A stretch of DNA of 64,000 nt from Phormidium tenue FACHB-886. Lineage in GTDB: Bacteria > Cyanobacteriota > Cyanobacteriia > Elainellales > Elainellaceae. Positions 7,771 through 40,130 of the stretch are shown piece after piece. The notes beneath the pieces were generated by a model that had not been told where the DNA came from, did no database searches, and was given only the letters and a program-made list of their open reading frames with translations. The position numbers and the translations under genes are program-made. The stretch spans positions 1 through 64,000 of the forward strand of contig NZ_JACXWX010000014.1 of assembly GCF_014764505.1 (NCBI RefSeq). Direction: 5' to 3'. The first letter of the stretch is position 1; each line of letters begins with the position of its first letter.

Positions 7771-8883
7771 ATGATTGAGACATTGAATCCCAATCGCCAG
7801 CTTAAAGAGACCATAGTTCAACCGTTAGAATTTCCTAGCTCACCAAACTACGCTGCAGCAGAACAGCAGTTTGTAAAGCTGCTAGATACTGATAATTTAG
7901 ATCAGCAAATAAATAGCCAGCCTGAGCAGGTTAGTGAGTTTGAAGCTGCATTAGCAGCAGCGCTGAGCACTGCCTATACTGAAGCCTCAGAGGATGCAGC
8001 TCGGTTATTTTTGCAAAGGATTCTCTACCGGATCAATCGTCTTAACTTATTCTGGTACGATGACTTACAGCGCTACAAAAATGAGCGATCGTATTACCTG
8101 CAATGGGTACGCGATCGGATTGAGTCTGTTTGGCAAGCCTGGGAGATCTCCCACTTTCAGCTTGATGAATATCGACGGCTCAATGTCGAGCAGGCGCTGC
8201 AGGAGCGGTGCGATGCTGACCTTGAGCCACCCCTAACTGAGGGCAAGCGCTATCTACGTGAAACGATGTCGCTGGAGGGCTATCGGTGGCTGTTGGCGAT
8301 CGCTTCTTTAGATGGATTGGTTGAAGCAAGCCGCATGTCTCGCATCTTGGGTGGAGCTAGCAACGAAGTTCAGGCAATGCTGATTCGGGTGCTGATGGAA
8401 GAGTATGGCAACGGACGCTTTAACCGCAAGCATTCCACTTTCTTTGCCCAGATGATGGCAGAGGTTGGACTAAGAACCGAGCCAGAATACTATTTTGAGC
8501 TGGCTCCATGGCAGCTTCTAGCAAGCATCAATCACAATTTCTTGCTCACCGAATGTAAGCGACACTTTCTGCGCTACAACGGCGGACTAACCTACTTTGA
8601 GATTGTGGGTCCTTCGGTTTATCGAGATTATATGGCTGCTGCCCAACGGCTGGGACTATCCGACGCTGCTATGGGCTATTGGGAATTGCACATCCGAGAG
8701 GATGAGCGACACGGGCAATGGATGCTTAAAGAGGTTGGACAACCACTAGCTAAGCTATATCCAGAAGATGCCTGGGAACTGGTACTGGGATATGACCAGG
8801 AAAAACTGATTGGCGATCGGGCTGGAGCCGCGATCATCGATGTTATTCAATCCGCTGAACGAACTGGAAGGAAACTTGCATGA
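7771..8883 (+). CDS. Iron-containing redox enzyme (haem-oxygenase-like diiron oxidase)
   Basis: The 370-residue all-helical product fits the haem-oxygenase-like diiron oxidase/oxygenase family (Haem_oxygenas_2 type), whose members include UndA, SznF, BesC and CADD. Probable iron ligands are visible: E210/E211 in EEYGNGRFNRKH, H221, E277 in GGLTYFE, and the diagnostic H-x3-D-x2-H set H307, D311 and H314 in ELHIREDERHG. Family members use O2 to cleave or hydroxylate fatty acids, amino acids or N-containing substrates, and the sequence alone does not tell which. The stop overlaps the start of the methyltransferase (ATGA), so the two proteins are made together. The pathway is unknown. Confidence 0.8.
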   Translation: MIETLNPNRQLKETIVQPLEFPSSPNYAAAEQQFVKLLDTDNLDQQINSQPEQVSEFEAALAAALSTAYTEASEDAARLFLQRILYRINRLNLFWYDDLQRYKNERSYYLQWVRDRIESVWQAWEISHFQLDEYRRLNVEQALQERCDADLEPPLTEGKRYLRETMSLEGYRWLLAIASLDGLVEASRMSRILGGASNEVQAMLIRVLMEEYGNGRFNRKHSTFFAQMMAEVGLRTEPEYYFELAPWQLLASINHNFLLTECKRHFLRYNGGLTYFEIVGPSVYRDYMAAAQRLGLSDAAMGYWELHIREDERHGQWMLKEVGQPLAKLYPEDAWELVLGYDQEKLIGDRAGAAIIDVIQSAERTGRKLA

Positions 8884-9656
8884 AAGAAGCAGTGCTGAAC
8901 GCAGTAGACACAACTTCGCGTACCCATCATTCACCTGACAGCGTTAAAACCTATTCTCCTCACGAAGTATTCTTCTGCCCTGAAGAATCACAATTCTATT
9001 CTCAGTGTTTAGAAAAGATGGTACTCAACCACTGCACGCCATCAGAGCAAGTGATTGAGTTTGGTGCAGGAGATGGTAGCCCTGTGATCAATGGGTTGCT
9101 GAAAACGAAGTTTGCCGGGGCAATTCATGGATACGAGCTGAGTGCTGCCGCTTGTGAAGTAGCGCGGTCTCGGATCAAACAGTATCAGCTTGGCGGTAAA
9201 TATACTGTTCATAATCAGTGCTTCTTTGAAGGATACGAATCAATCACAGCTCAGTATTTGATCGCCAATCCGCCTTATTTGCCTGCTCCAGACGATCGTA
9301 TCTGTATGCCTGCTCTACATGGCGGAATTGATGGTGCAACTATCACCAATCAATTGCTGTCGGTGGGGTGCAGCAATGTTCTACTAATGATCTCAGCCTA
9401 CTCTAATCCGGTTGAAACGATTCAACATGCGATTAAAGAGGGATATCGGGTTGCAGATTTTATGGTTACACCGCTGCAATTTGGCTATTACAGCTCTGAA
9501 CCCAGAGTTAGGGATTGGATTAGTGAGCTGCGTAAGCAAAAGAAGGCGTTTTATTCTTCTAATGTCTACTTCCTAGCGGGTGTTTTGTTTCAGGAGAAAC
9601 GCAGTGCCAAAGCAGATTTATCGGCTGAGTTACTTAAAGTAATTACTGCTTTGTAG
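8880..9656 (+). CDS. SAM-dependent methyltransferase coupled to the diiron oxidase
   Basis: The 258-residue class I methyltransferase has motif I EFGAGDGS (60-67), which binds S-adenosylmethionine, and motif IV NPPYL (130-134), typical of enzymes methylating planar nitrogens such as PrmC/HemK-like amide or adenine methylases. The rest does not look like PrmC or a DNA-modification enzyme: the protein is short, has no target-recognition domain and has its own C-terminal half with VYFLAGVLF. It overlaps the preceding gene by 4 bp (ATGA). The pair may oxidise and methylate one small-molecule or peptide substrate (inference). Confidence 0.75.
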   Translation: MKEAVLNAVDTTSRTHHSPDSVKTYSPHEVFFCPEESQFYSQCLEKMVLNHCTPSEQVIEFGAGDGSPVINGLLKTKFAGAIHGYELSAAACEVARSRIKQYQLGGKYTVHNQCFFEGYESITAQYLIANPPYLPAPDDRICMPALHGGIDGATITNQLLSVGCSNVLLMISAYSNPVETIQHAIKEGYRVADFMVTPLQFGYYSSEPRVRDWISELRKQKKAFYSSNVYFLAGVLFQEKRSAKADLSAELLKVITAL

Positions 9657-9683
9657 TTACTACTGTACACCTCTAATTCCAAA

Positions 9684-9720
9684 ATAAAAGCCGTGGAAGA
9701 GTTTCTTCCACGGCTTTTAT
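9684..9720 (+). terminator. Rho-independent terminator
   Basis: A 17-bp stem built around AAAAGCCGTGGAAG and its complement, with a 3-base loop, follows the methyltransferase stop by 28 bp and ends in CTTTTATTAG. The mirrored A-run lets it serve the convergent receiver gene as well. Confidence 0.85.
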
Positions 9721-9784
9721 TAGTAACTTTAAAGTGATTAAATATGTAACATTATGCACTTGGCTATATTTAAGTAATCTAGAT

Positions 9785-10228
9785 CTAAGTAATTTTGGAT
9801 ACTTGGTGAGCAAAGTTCACCTGTATTGGACAAAGGTAGTGCAACAAGTTAATCAACTGCTGTCCATTCTTTAAATGAACCACATACTCCCTAGTTCCCA
9901 CCTGCACATTTTTCCCTTCCATTTCTGATGCATACTGCTCAGCTATTACGACGATCGGCGTTTGCTCCGGCAGGTTAGTATTCCAACGGATAGCCTGCCC
10001 CAACCCAACAAATTCCTCGATCGACAGCCCCACCTGATTCAACAGAATTAAACTAGGGCAATTGCGATCGTCCCAACCCTGTTTACCTGCATCCGCCTCA
10101 CAAAGTGCTGTGGTAACGAGATAACCGTAATTTTGGAGATCAAACCTGAGAAGTGGGCGTATTTCTTCATCGGGTTCAATCAATAAGATCATTGGCGCCG
10201 GGTTCTGGCTTGCCTTCTCTACGTTCAT
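9785..10228 (-). CDS. Receiver-domain protein with Asn at the phospho-acceptor site
   Basis: This 147-residue single-domain protein has the receiver fold: an acidic pocket in ILLIEPDEE, then beta-3 reading LILLNQVGLS, where the phospho-accepting Asp of LLD is Asn. A lysine is present in YVVHLKNG near the usual KP position. It is probably a pseudo-receiver that does not take phosphate. The ATG at 10228 is chosen because AGGTAGAAAG precedes it; a GTG 51 bp upstream is possible. The gene lies downstream of a Crp-family regulator on the same strand and may be co-transcribed, which suggests partnership in signalling. Confidence 0.7.
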   Translation of the reverse strand: MNVEKASQNPAPMILLIEPDEEIRPLLRFDLQNYGYLVTTALCEADAGKQGWDDRNCPSLILLNQVGLSIEEFVGLGQAIRWNTNLPEQTPIVVIAEQYASEMEGKNVQVGTREYVVHLKNGQQLINLLHYLCPIQVNFAHQVSKIT

Positions 10229-10289
10229 GAATTTCTTTCTACCTTTTCGGATCAGCTTCAAAGGGGTGAGATCAACCACTGCACGAGCT

Positions 10290-23572: not shown

Positions 23573-23700
23573 GTCAAAGATACCTGACGCAGTATTGAAT
23601 ATTTCGCCTGAGGGTATTGCTTTATGGCTAAGTTCCCCTAAAATGGTCGAGAGAGTTGCGAACTTAGCGTAAGTTCAAATAGCAATTGAATAGGAATTAG

Positions 23701-23824
23701 CTTCTAGGGTTCCGGTTTAGAACCATGTCTACTAAATGACTGGTCCGAGAGAAGCAGCCGACTCCAGGTTTTTCAGTTCTAAGACCGAGTTGGCTACACG
23801 GCGGGAAAAAAGCCCGGGAGAGCC
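23701..23824 (+). promoter_or_regulatory. Guanidine-I riboswitch (ykkC class)
   Basis: The conserved landmarks of the guanidine-I aptamer occur in order and at normal spacing: CTAGGGTTCCGG (from 23704), TGGTCCGAGAGA (23740-23752), ACACGGCGGG (23796-23805) and AAAAGCCCGGGAGA (to 23821). One usually conserved base in the GGGATAAAAG segment is A here. The aptamer is followed by a terminator and by genes for carboxyguanidine deiminase and a biotin carboxylase, exactly the genes this riboswitch class controls. Guanidine binding should switch the operon on. Confidence 0.93.
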
Positions 23825-25428: not shown

Positions 25429-28400
25429 GTGAGGACAAACAAAGTTTTAATCGCCAATCGGGGTGAGATTGCCTGCCGGATTATTCGGACACTCGATCGC
25501 CTGGGAATTGCCTCGGTGGCGGTTTACTCGGAGGCAGATGCCCATACGCTGCCGGTTGCCATGGCAACCGAAGCCGTATGCATCGGTTCTGCGCCTGTGG
25601 CAGAAAGCTATCTCAAATACGATCGCATCCTGGAAGTTGCGGAGCAAACGGGGGCACAGGCAATTCATCCAGGCTACGGTTTTTTGAGCGAGAATGTAGA
25701 GTTTGCAGAAGCCTGCGAGCGCAAAGGCATTGCCTTTGTGGGTCCTACCGCGCAGCAGATCAGCCAGTTTGGGTTGAAGCATACTGCGCGGGAGCTAGCG
25801 GAACACAATCAGGTGCCTTTAGTGCCTGGAACAGGGCTGCTGGAGAGCTTGGAGCAGGCACAACAGGCAGCAGAGGCGATCGGTTATCCTGTGATGCTCA
25901 AAAGCACTGCAGGCGGTGGCGGCATTGGGATGCAAGTGTGCTTCAACGATGCTGAACTGGCAGATGCGTTTGAGAAAGTGAAACGCCTGAGCCAAGCCAA
26001 CTTCAAGCAGAGCGGTGTATTTTTAGAGAAATATATTCAAACTGCTCGGCATATAGAAGTGCAGATCTTTGGAGATGGCAAGGGTCATGTGGTAGCGCTG
26101 GGTGAGCGAGACTGTTCGACACAGCGACGAAATCAAAAAGTAATTGAAGAAACACCTGCTCCAGGAATTAGTGATGCACTACGGCAACAGCTAGAAGATT
26201 GCGCCGTGCGGCTAGGGCAGGCAGTCAACTATCGATCGGCAGGCACAGTTGAATTTGTCTTTGATGTTGAAACGCAGCAGTTTTATTTTTTGGAAGTCAA
26301 CACGCGCTTACAGGTTGAACATGGCGTCACTGAAATGGTGAGCAATGTCGATCTGGTGGAATGGATGATTCGATTAGCAGATGGCGATAGCACCTTCTTG
26401 AAGAACTATCACCATCAACCGCAAGGACATTCAATTCAGGTGCGAGTCTACGCCGAAGATGCGAACAAAGGCTTTCAGCCCAGTTCGGGTCTGCTTAGTG
26501 CGGTTAGTTTTCCTGAAACCGTCCGCTGTGATTCCTGGATTGAAACGGGCAGCGAAGTCACACCCTTCTATGATCCGCTGTTGGCAAAGGTGATTGTGCA
26601 TGGAGAAAATCGGGAAGCGGCGATCGCTCAGCTACAATCTGCCTTAGACAAGTCCGAAATTGCCGGAATTGAAACGAACATAGACTACTTGCGCCAAGTG
26701 ATCGCCAGCTCCAATTTTATTCAAGGTACAGTTAGCACTCGCTTTCTCAGTACGTTTGCATATCAGCCGCGCACGATCGATGTTCTAGATTCTGGTACTT
26801 ATACCACGATTCAAGATTATCCTGGACGAATTGGCTACTGGGACATTGGTGTACCTCCATCAGGACCAATGGATCATCTAGCATTTCGCTTAGCCAATCG
26901 AATTTTAGGAAATTCTGAGGCAGCAGCAGGGCTGGAATGCACAGTCACAGGGCCTACCTTGCGCTTCAACTGCGATACGGTCATTTGCCTGACGGGTGCA
27001 GCCATGAAAGCCACCTTGAACGGGCAAGCCGCTCCCTTTTGGGCAGCCATTCCCGTGAGCGCAGGCAGCACCCTCAAGCTCAAAGCGATCCAAGGACAGG
27101 GCTATCGCACCTATCTAGCAGTCCAACATGGATTTGATGTGCCAGACTATTTGGGCAGCAAAGCAACGTTCACTTTAGGCAAATTTGGCGGACATGCTGG
27201 ACGAACCTTGCGAACAGGAGATGTGCTGCGTTTGGAAGAGGTTGAGACCGAGAATACCAACCAGGATATAACTCATGAATGTCCCAGCGAATTGGTTCCA
27301 TCCTATACCAATGAATGGGAGATTGGCGTTCTTTACGGTCCACACGGTGCACCTGATTTCTTCACTGATGCAGACATCCAGATATTCTTTGCAACGCGCT
27401 GGACAATTCACCACAACTCAGCGCGCACAGGAATTCGCCTGATTGGTCCCAAACCAGAATGGGCGCGGACGGACGGCGGCGAAGCTGGCTTACACCCTTC
27501 CAATATTCACGATAATGCTTATGCGATCGGCACCATTGATTTCACAGGCGACATGCCGATCATTCTGGCTCATGATGGTCCTAGTTTGGGGGGTTTCGTC
27601 TGTCCAGCCACGATCGTCCAATCTGAGCTTTGGAAAATTGGACAACTTAAACCAGGTGACACGGTTCGTTTTTATCCCCTCACCGCTGAAGCAGCCCGCC
27701 AGCGAGAGCTAGAGCAAGATCGGCAGATTGAAACGCTGGAGCTGGAAAGACAAGTGAGCAGCCTCTCCCCTGCTTCACCCACTGCTCCCTCATCCCCTGG
27801 TTCTCCTATTCTTCATCAAATCCCGGCATCCCCCACTCAGATCGCCGTCAGCTACCGTCAGGCAGGAGACCGGTATCTCCTGATTGAGTACGGCCCGCTG
27901 GTGCTGGATCTCAATCTGCGCTTTCGAGTGCATGCGCTGATGGAATGGCTGAAATCAACTCATCTGAACGGCGTGATCGACCTGACGCCGGGGATTCGAT
28001 CGCTGCAAGTTCACTACGACAGCCGCATTCTCCCTCTGCAAGCCTTGCTGGAGATCTTAATTGCCGCAGAAACAGAGCTGCCAGAGGTTGATGATATGCA
28101 GGTACCCACGCGGATCGTGCATCTGCCGCTCTCCTGGGATGATGAGTCTACGCAGCTGGCGATCCAAAAATACATGCAGTCGGTACGCCCCGATGCACCT
28201 TGGTGCCCTAGCAATATTGAGTTCATCCGGCGGATTAACGGACTCGACAGCACTGAGCAAGTGCGGCAAATCGTCTTTGATGCCAGCTATCTGGTGATGG
28301 GATTGGGAGATGTCTATCTGGGTGCACCCGTTGCCACACCGCTCGATCCACGTCATCGTCTGGTAACGACAAAATATAATCCGGCTCGCACCTGGACGCC

Positions 28401-29064
28401 CGAAAATGCAGTCGGGATCGGCGGCGCCTATCTGTGTATCTATGGGATGGAAGGTCCGGGTGGCTATCAGTTTGTGGGACGGACTGTGCCCGTTTGGAAT
28501 CGCTACAAGCAGACCGCAGACTTTAGCCATCCCTGGCTGCTGCGCTTTTTTGACCAAATTCGGTTCTATCCGGTTTCAGCAGACGAACTGCTGCGCTATC
28601 GGGAGGATGTTATTCAGGGCAAAGTCAAACTAGAGATTCAGGAAGAAACCTTTAGCTTGAAGCAATATCAAGAATTTCTGGCGGCTAATGCAGCGGATAT
28701 TGCAGCCTTCAGAGCCAAACAGCAGGTTGCTTTTGCTGCTGAACGCGATCGCTGGGCAGCCGCCGGAGAATTTAGCCGTCAGGAAGCCTTAGAAGAAGTT
28801 GAGCCAGACACATCCACAGAACCTGAAATTGTCCTACCTGCCGATGCAGAAGCGATCGTGGCTCATGTTTCTGCTAATGTATGGCAAGTACTGGTCGAAC
28901 CGGGGGATGTCGTGGCAGAGGGTGATCGCCTGGTGATTCTGGAGGCAATGAAAATGGAAATTGCCATTCTTGCCGATAGCGCTGGGACTATTGCTCAGGT
29001 GTATTGCCAGAAAGGGCAAACCGTGACGGCTGGGCAACTGCTGGCGGCGATCCGAGTGGCTTGA
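25429..29064 (+). CDS. Guanidine carboxylase (urea carboxylase family, biotin-dependent)
   Basis: The 1211-residue enzyme has a biotin carboxylase domain (1-450, with the ATP loop [11 protein letters not shown] near 157), a carboxyltransferase domain of the urea-carboxylase/KipA-KipI type (about 454-1020, split by a Pro/Ser-rich linker near 775-800), a linker helix region and a C-terminal biotinyl domain with biotinylated K1175 in EAMKM. Such enzymes were named urea carboxylases, but those with DUF1989 partners and a guanidine-I riboswitch carboxylate guanidine. That context is complete here, so guanidine is the likely substrate. No ATG is in frame; GTG at 25429 starts the protein. The next step, allophanate hydrolase, is not encoded nearby. 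Confidence 0.9.
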
Positions 29065-38423: not shown

Positions 38424-40130
38424 ATGAATATGATTAAGTCGAAATTCGTTAATTCTGCGTTCGTCGTTTTTCTCCCGATCGTCTACATCATTGTTTATCT
38501 GCTGATTGGCAACCAAAAGGGGCCATATTACTGGACACCCAACCAAGACCCGGACTACGCCTATCTAGCTAATTCTCTAGTCTTGACGCTGTTTCGAGTC
38601 CCCAGCCACACCGATCATCCCGGAACCCCGCTGCAGATGCTGGGAGCGCTCACCATTTGGGTGGGGCACTTCTTTCGATCGCTGTTCAACCCTGCCTTGC
38701 CCAGAGATGTCGCGACAGATGTGCTAACTGATCCAGAGCCGTTTCTGCACCTGTTCAACTTTGTGCTGCTGCTGCTGACGGCGATCGCCCTAGTGGCGTT
38801 GGGTTGGGTTGCCTATCGCCTCAGCCGCAGCCTCATTTTGGTGCTAATTCTGCAAATTAGCCCGTTTTTGATGATCAAGACTCACTTGGGCGGTGAGCCA
38901 AGCCGCGTGTCGCCAGATGTGCTGGTATTTTGCATCAGTCAGCTTTTGGCGCTGGTGTTGGTGCAACACCTCTATACCGAGAATGGCGGCAAGCTGCGGG
39001 GATTTGCGCTGCGGCTAGGCGCGGTGTTTGGGCTGGGCATGGCAACCAAAGTGACTTTTATTCCTATGTTTTTGTTTTTTCTGCTGCCGCGCGGCTGGAA
39101 GAACAAAGCTTGGGCGCTGGGAGCGGCGATCGTTGCCTTTGTCATTTCTACGCTGCCTATCATCAGTCGCTACAACAGGACGTTTCGCTGGATGACGGGC
39201 ATTGCAACGCATACAGGTGCCTATGGCGGCGGCGATGCGGGTTTAGTAGCCACAGACAGCTTGGGGCGAAATATTTACCTGTTGGTGACTCGTAATTTAG
39301 TTTTTTTTGGCATTTTACTGACTGCAACGATCGTCGCTCTAGTCATTGCGGCCCTATGGCGTCGTTGGGGCAGCGCTGAAGAATCAGGCAGACAGGCTGA
39401 ACCGGCGGATGAGTTGGCAGATAGCCAGCCGAGATTTCATCTGCGATCGCCCCACTTTCGTAAAACTTATGCCCTGCTGGTGATCACGACCCTCGTCATG
39501 TGGGGGCAAGTAGCGCTGACAGTTAACGAACAGCCGCAGAGCCGCTATCTCGATCCTTCAGCAGGCTTGATGGGATTTTTGGTGTTTTTGCTGGTGCAGA
39601 TTGGCTTAGCGATCGGGTCTACGACGGGCAGCCGGTTTGTGCCAAAGGTGAATGTCGCAGTGCCAGCGATCGCCCTCGCGCTTTGTGTGTTGCTCAGCGC
39701 TCAACAGGCAGATGCTTCGATCGACCAGATCGCCCCTCAGGCAAAAAAACGAGCTGCTGAGCTAAACAGAATAGAAAAGATTTTAGAGCGTGATCAATAC
39801 CGTAGCTGCGCCAGACTTTTATCAAGACGGGCTTCTACGATCGAATCGGCGCTGAAATTTGCTGACTTTTGGGCAGGGAAAAAGCTGGCGACTCGCCTTC
39901 AGCCGCTTTACCCTAACTCAGCATTTTACATTGATGAGAACAAGAGCTTTGAATCATTTACTGAGCCCGTCAGCTTAGAAACAATGGCACAGCGCGGAAA
40001 CGGCTGCGTGCTGCTGGAGATCAATGCGGTTCCGCCTCAAAGTAAAAAAGCTAGATTTCGCCCACAACAGGCGCTTGAAAAAGTGTTTGAGGGACGGCAT
40101 GAAGCGGTGTACCGCATCAAAACCTCATAG
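38424..40130 (+). CDS. Polytopic membrane protein, putative GT-C type glycosyltransferase
   Basis: The 568-residue product has about ten transmembrane helices in the first 420 residues and a soluble C-terminal domain. An early loop reads QDPDYAYLANSL and then SHTDHPGTPLQ, where the acidic pair and H-P resemble the first loop of GT-C dolichol/undecaprenyl-sugar transferases (GT39-like). The acceptor and sugar are unknown. GGGGAGAG precedes the ATG. A recognisable GT39 relative lies at 42.6 kb, but IF-3 and an MFS gene separate them. Confidence 0.6.
   Translation: MNMIKSKFVNSAFVVFLPIVYIIVYLLIGNQKGPYYWTPNQDPDYAYLANSLVLTLFRVPSHTDHPGTPLQMLGALTIWVGHFFRSLFNPALPRDVATDVLTDPEPFLHLFNFVLLLLTAIALVALGWVAYRLSRSLILVLILQISPFLMIKTHLGGEPSRVSPDVLVFCISQLLALVLVQHLYTENGGKLRGFALRLGAVFGLGMATKVTFIPMFLFFLLPRGWKNKAWALGAAIVAFVISTLPIISRYNRTFRWMTGIATHTGAYGGGDAGLVATDSLGRNIYLLVTRNLVFFGILLTATIVALVIAALWRRWGSAEESGRQAEPADELADSQPRFHLRSPHFRKTYALLVITTLVMWGQVALTVNEQPQSRYLDPSAGLMGFLVFLLVQIGLAIGSTTGSRFVPKVNVAVPAIALALCVLLSAQQADASIDQIAPQAKKRAAELNRIEKILERDQYRSCARLLSRRASTIESALKFADFWAGKKLATRLQPLYPNSAFYIDENKSFESFTEPVSLETMAQRGNGCVLLEINAVPPQSKKARFRPQQALEKVFEGRHEAVYRIKTS

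Follow-up and report, generated by a model that had tools for sequence, protein, structure and literature searches.

A haem-oxygenase-like di-iron oxidase and a HemK2/PrmC-type methyltransferase are inherited together as a patchily distributed two-gene unit in cyanobacteria

The haem-oxygenase-like di-iron oxidases (HDOs) form an enzyme superfamily in which a reaction is known for only about a dozen members, and a minority type, comprising about a quarter of all HDOs, carries a set of three histidine and four carboxylate ligands (3H/4C) first seen in the N-oxygenase SznF (PMC13108848). Two described systems join HDOs to an N-methyltransferase on one small molecule, namely, the streptozotocin system, in which SznE works with the N-oxygenating SznF (PMC11705231), and the fluopsin C system, in which FlcA works with FlcE and FlcD (PMC11363339). 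Here, we describe a pair of adjoining oxidase and methyltransferase genes from the cyanobacterium Phormidium tenue FACHB-886, located in a stretch of 64,000 nucleotides that is hereafter called the window (NZ_JACXWX010000014.1, positions 1-64,000; working label G000:C46; assembly of 8.9 Mb). The oxidase comes from a known superfamily; no description of the pair was found in the open-access literature, subscription papers being outside the search.

The upstream gene (7771-8883, + strand) encodes an HDO of 370 amino acids that matches PF14518 with 97.5 bits against a cut-off of 28.9 (E 1e-27), and it comprises an N-terminal helical domain (residues ~27-150) and the HDO domain (~138-365). The downstream gene (8880-9656, + strand) encodes a HemK2/PrmC-type class I methyltransferase of 258 amino acids, and its start overlaps the oxidase stop by 4 bp (ATGA, 8880-8883), as a first-pass annotation of this DNA had stated. 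The terminator with which that annotation closed the unit corresponds to an 18-bp hairpin at 9683-9721 (no strand assigned; folding energy -27.2 kcal/mol, z = -8.25), which a simple terminator scan did not report. This likely terminator is shared with a convergent gene at 9785-10279 and, given its placement between convergent genes, probably serves both strands. The ratio of nonsynonymous to synonymous substitution (dN/dS) is ~0.05 where computable, with dS near saturation.

The pair is widely conserved. Across 80 homologous loci from public genomes, the methyltransferase gene adjoins the oxidase gene in 73, codirectionally in 56 and convergently in 17. The first-pass annotation had proposed recurrence in distant taxa with the 4-bp overlap retained as the sign of a real unit; the pair itself spans many cyanobacterial families and is thus not confined to close relatives, but the overlap is limited to the closest relatives and is no conserved hallmark, as the spacing of codirectional pairs ranges from overlap to a gap of 925 bp and 17 loci are convergent. 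Several of the loci lacking an adjacent methyltransferase gene lie at contig ends. Whole-genome searches of unpaired loci located the methyltransferase elsewhere in three genomes (Richelia, Chlorogloea, and Tychonema; the Chlorogloea strain is CCALA 695) and did not detect it in three small assemblies.

Co-occurrence extends beyond linkage. A sample of 386 cyanobacterial genomes, each at least 90% complete, contains 29 with the methyltransferase and 30 with the oxidase, and every methyltransferase genome (29/29), like every methyltransferase genus (19/19), also has the oxidase. The lone oxidase-only genome (G104) holds just a fragment of the oxidase; in what is apparently the same genome (G496), a residual methyltransferase tail lies ~20-35 bp from that fragment, as if the central part of the unit had been lost in a single deletion. 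Conversely, one genome (G349) has kept both genes ~1.45 Mb apart on one contig. Among closer relatives, the methyltransferase is found in 21 of 24 oxidase genomes. Since the two genes are kept or lost jointly across the phylum, even when unlinked, the pair very likely runs one small, undescribed pathway.

The two gene histories also agree. Pairwise tree distances of the oxidase and the methyltransferase are correlated (r = 0.85, 70 loci), and in both trees the Anabaena/Trichormus copies cluster with Pseudanabaena at a support of 1.0, far from other Nostocales. Identity inside the Anabaena and Pseudanabaena clade is 73-76%, as opposed to 51-61% to other Nostocales. Given this shared grouping, the oxidase and methyltransferase appear to have moved jointly between distant cyanobacteria. 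That the pair is a unit is well supported, and it appears to have been distributed patchily in cyanobacteria through descent and horizontal transfer. The survey covered cyanobacteria together with plasmids, phages, and viral contigs: the methyltransferase was not found on plasmids or phages, and viral contigs held no relatives of either protein. Plasmid-borne HDOs are at most ~30% identical, several of them grouped with Rieske, ATP-grasp, and other methyltransferase genes. Some matched records bear the names Chloroflexaceae or Gracilibacteria and probably contain cyanobacterial DNA that was misnamed or mis-binned; one of them behaved as a cyanobacterium by phylum group.

A third gene often accompanies the pair. 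Genes for DUF3891 proteins, a few of them fragments, occur in 22 of 29 pair-positive genomes as opposed to 14 of 357 pair-negative ones (genus-level Fisher p = 5e-9). Their placement varies: between the oxidase and methyltransferase genes in Anabaena/Trichormus and one Pseudanabaena, 3′ of the oxidase in another locus, just upstream of the pair in Nodosilinea-type genomes, and on another contig (C212) in the host genome of the window. Across 33 sequences, H15, H18, H47, H48, D49, H104, and D155 are invariant or nearly so, a pattern that suggests an HD-type metal site. DUF3891 is therefore a candidate third partner, frequent and not obligatory, and this association offers a first functional lead for a family on which no paper was found in the open-access literature. 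In three Nostocaceae loci (L165, L168, and L172), the DUF3891 gene adjoins Mn-catalase-like, GlsB-like, HemN-like, and apparent haem oxygenase genes.

Turning to the oxidase, its assignment to the haem-oxygenase-like di-iron type holds at the level of the PF14518 match, of the helical-bundle fold of the predicted model (Foldseek and VIA-align comparison with the PDB), and of the E-H-E-H-(D/E)-H metal motif formed by E211, H221, E277, H307, D311, and H314. These six residues had been listed beforehand as a complete 3-His/3-carboxylate set, with E210 or E211 as the first ligand; all six stand, E211 and not E210 being the residue that aligns with SznF E215, but a seventh, E185, had been missed. 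The predicted ligand set is 3H/4C, and it corresponds one-to-one with that of SznF: E185 (8323-8325) with E189, E211 (8401-8403) with E215, H221 (8431-8433) with H225, E277 (8599-8601) with E281, and H307, D311, and H314, on the third core helix (8689-8712), with H311, D315, and H318, all codons being on the + strand. E185 would supply the extra glutamate of the auxiliary helix that typifies the 3H/4C N-oxygenases of the SznF/RohS type, and it is glutamate in 52 of the 54 rows of the family alignment. All seven positions are constant across that alignment, barring two divergent paralogues, L025 (1477-2661, - strand) and L027 (1217-2353, - strand). These paralogues are 36-42% identical to the oxidase, have lost most metal ligands, and are candidate HDO-fold pseudo-enzymes; one of them adjoins a CrtO-like gene. 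The host genome of the window holds four more PF14518-type matches (G000:C135:46272-46784, C178:3835-4311, C67:3446-3961, and C116:3770-4249), one of which is below the cut-off.

Both sequence profiles and the AlphaFold2 (AF2) model, with a predicted local distance difference test (pLDDT) score of 85.7, place the oxidase nearest to N-oxygenases, RohS by sequence and HrmI and SznF by predicted fold. In the profile search, RohS ranks first (E 8.4e-22), followed by SznF and HrmI. In the comparison with the PDB, the leading matches are HrmI (Z 32.7, root-mean-square deviation (rmsd) 3.0, 327 residues), SznF (Z 27.9, rmsd 3.3, 317 residues), and RohS (Z 26.7, rmsd 2.5, 272 residues), all three N-oxygenases and well above the CADD, BesC, and UndA types (Z 15-18), with FlcD at Z ~24. 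None of these enzymes is a complete counterpart. RohS, the azomycin N-oxygenase acting on 2-aminoimidazole, is the closest solved sequence relative and shares the fold and the glutamate at the seventh-ligand position, but it is shorter, lacks the N-terminal domain, and works in a pathway with RohP, RohQ, and RohR and no methyltransferase partner. SznF shares the ligand set, the N-terminal helical domain, and an N-methyltransferase partner; no match to its C-terminal cupin, the domain for rearrangement to the N-nitrosourea, was found, the present protein having only 370 residues and stopping where the HDO domain is complete, and SznE is an arginine guanidino methyltransferase, as opposed to the HemK-like enzyme encoded here. 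HrmI, a lysine 6-N-oxygenase, is the best full-length fold match but has a 3H/3C site and is 15-16% identical; we know of no methyltransferase partner for it. The fluopsin C enzymes likewise combine HDOs with a SAM (S-adenosylmethionine) N-methyltransferase on one small nitrogenous molecule, yet FlcD is mononuclear, its second site being broken, the substrate is cysteine-derived, and FlcB and FlcC also take part. These comparisons bear on whether the oxidase might instead oxidize an amino or fatty acid in some other way, for instance by desaturation or C-C cleavage, with methylation as the next step. The HDO fold does support many reactions (PMC13108848) and FlcD is a good fold match, but the extra glutamate and the similarity in sequence to RohS and SznF favour the N-oxygenase side, UndA- and BesC-type matches are far weaker, and we regard such chemistry as unlikely.

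The methyltransferase had been described beforehand as of the NPPY type, and rightly so: the motif stands at residues 130-133 (9267-9278, + strand) and is invariant in 59 of 59 aligned rows. The AF2 model (pLDDT 90.4) has a HemK2-like fold, closest to N6AMT1/HEMK2 (Z 19.0, rmsd 2.4, 183 residues) and PrmC (Z 17.8, rmsd 4.3, 187 residues), with Mtq2 and the peptide Asn N-methyltransferase AerE also near. With these enzymes, HemK2/MTQ2/N6AMT1 and PrmC, it shares the Rossmann fold and NPPY, and its N-terminal layout resembles that of HemK2; it differs in lying below their model cut-offs, in lacking the PrmC N-terminal domain, and in being present in a minority of cyanobacteria. Matches to HemK/PrmC models are weak overall (19-31 bits against cut-offs of 87-243), including 19.2 bits for the HemK2/MTQ2 model TIGR00537 (cut-off 87) and 25.9-26.7 bits for PrmC (cut-off 199). 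The enzyme is not PrmC, as judged from these scores and from the presence of a separate full PrmC on another contig of the same genome (229 bits), and the housekeeping PrmC-like role that the first-pass annotation had named among the findings against a new system was not borne out.

Owing to the HemK2/PrmC-like fold, a protein or RNA substrate has to be weighed. The two proteins could form a pair in which the methyltransferase N-methylates a Gln, Asn, or Lys residue of a cyanobacterial protein and the oxidase oxidizes that same protein, as the nearest folds of the methyltransferase (N6AMT1/HEMK2, Mtq2, PrmC, and AerE) and the existence of HDOs that act on ribosomal peptides (PMC13108848) would allow. 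On the other hand, no conserved small open reading frame (ORF) accompanies the pair outside closely related genomes, and methyltransferases of small molecules, such as the carbamoyl N-methyltransferase Asc-Orf2, are also HemK-like; this arrangement strikes us as rather improbable. The earlier statement that no precursor peptide is present stands, none being conserved at the pair loci, where small ORFs are lineage-restricted only. The earlier proposal of an uncharacterised small-molecule pathway is consistent with the fold relatives and with the finding that neither a precursor peptide nor a riboswitch is conserved at these loci, and it is qualified by the possible protein or RNA substrate of a HemK2/PrmC-like enzyme.

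Computation established the pair, its folds, the conservation of the ligands, and the co-inheritance, and the known partnerships of N-oxygenating HDOs with N-methyltransferases make the same role the simplest reading of the pair. Under that reading, to which we give about an even chance, an SznF/RohS-like N-oxygenase and a SAM-dependent N-methyltransferase would act on one nitrogenous substrate as a two-gene unit in cyanobacteria. A reduced di-iron centre held by E185, E211, H221, E277, H307, D311, and H314 would bind O2, and the resulting peroxo species would oxygenate an amine- or guanidine-type nitrogen. Electrons would probably come from a host ferredoxin, as the pair has no linked gene for a redox partner, unlike four plasmid HDO clusters with a Rieske protein. 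The methyltransferase would methylate a nitrogen of the same substrate before or after oxygenation, orders for which SznE before SznF and FlcA after FlcE/FlcD are precedents, and the DUF3891 protein, with its HD-domain-like His/Asp set, may be a frequent, non-obligatory partner.

Several points weigh against this reading. The 3H/4C set is no proof of N-oxygenation, since about a quarter of HDOs share it, mostly without a tested reaction. The fold lead of HrmI, SznF, and FlcD is owed in part to a common N-terminal domain, and HrmI, the top match, has a 3H/3C site. HemK-type methyltransferases often modify proteins, and the small substrate common to both enzymes is inferred, as are N-oxygenation, N-methylation, and ferredoxin. 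As to co-inheritance, one genus (G017, G026, and G032) has the oxidase and lacks the methyltransferase, and the co-occurrence counts allow only partly for phylogeny. The unit is well supported and its chemistry is a prediction. A bolder scheme would make DUF3891 an HD-type metalloenzyme that joins the oxidase and the methyltransferase in a mobile, hitherto undescribed cyanobacterial route from a primary amine or guanidine to an N-oxygenated, N-methylated metabolite such as a metal chelator or signal; it is tentative and, on balance, doubtful.

A further explanation invokes protection rather than biosynthesis. Acinetobacter DtpC, a distant HDO whose gene is transcribed together with that of the catalase KatE, protects dried cells by limiting peroxide (PMC13232832), and the oxidase could act similarly; in some cyanobacterial lineages, hemerythrin, ChaB, BON, CrtO, HLIP, or Mn-catalase-like genes are found close to the pair or to DUF3891. 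This stress-island context, attractive by eye, was set aside on a control count, stress genes being near the pair in 3/20 genomes as opposed to 3/40 control stretches, with no clear enrichment and with markers picked post hoc. DtpC is not reported with a methyltransferase, no catalase gene lies in the two-gene unit, and we consider a stress-protection module very unlikely.

In practice, this compact pair, kept or lost jointly in many cyanobacterial families, gives ready access to a new HDO reaction, offering two or three genes for expression, a clear prediction of nitrogen oxidation with N-methylation, and natural losses to compare.

A link to guanidine was also considered and rejected, as the Guanidine-I riboswitch occurs in 12/29 pair genomes as opposed to 111/357 others (p = 0.30). 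No riboswitch or other RNA was detected upstream of the pair at the Rfam gathering level (20 loci). The window does hold one Guanidine-I riboswitch (RF00442, 78.4 bits; 23693-23822, + strand), 14 kb from the pair and followed downstream by two small genes and a gene resembling urea/guanidine carboxylase (25429-29064), and another genome (G063) has one ~11 kb from its pair. Elsewhere in the window, a 568-amino acid ORF (38424-40130, + strand) has no Pfam match at E 1e-5. Four plasmid loci (L175, L176, L177, and L178, from Pantoea, Gloeothece, Azospirillum, and Methylobacterium) encode distant HDOs of ~460-475 amino acids with a Rieske protein, variously adding 'L11 methyltransferase'-like, ATP-grasp, and transporter genes, and apparently represent another uncharacterised HDO gene cluster.
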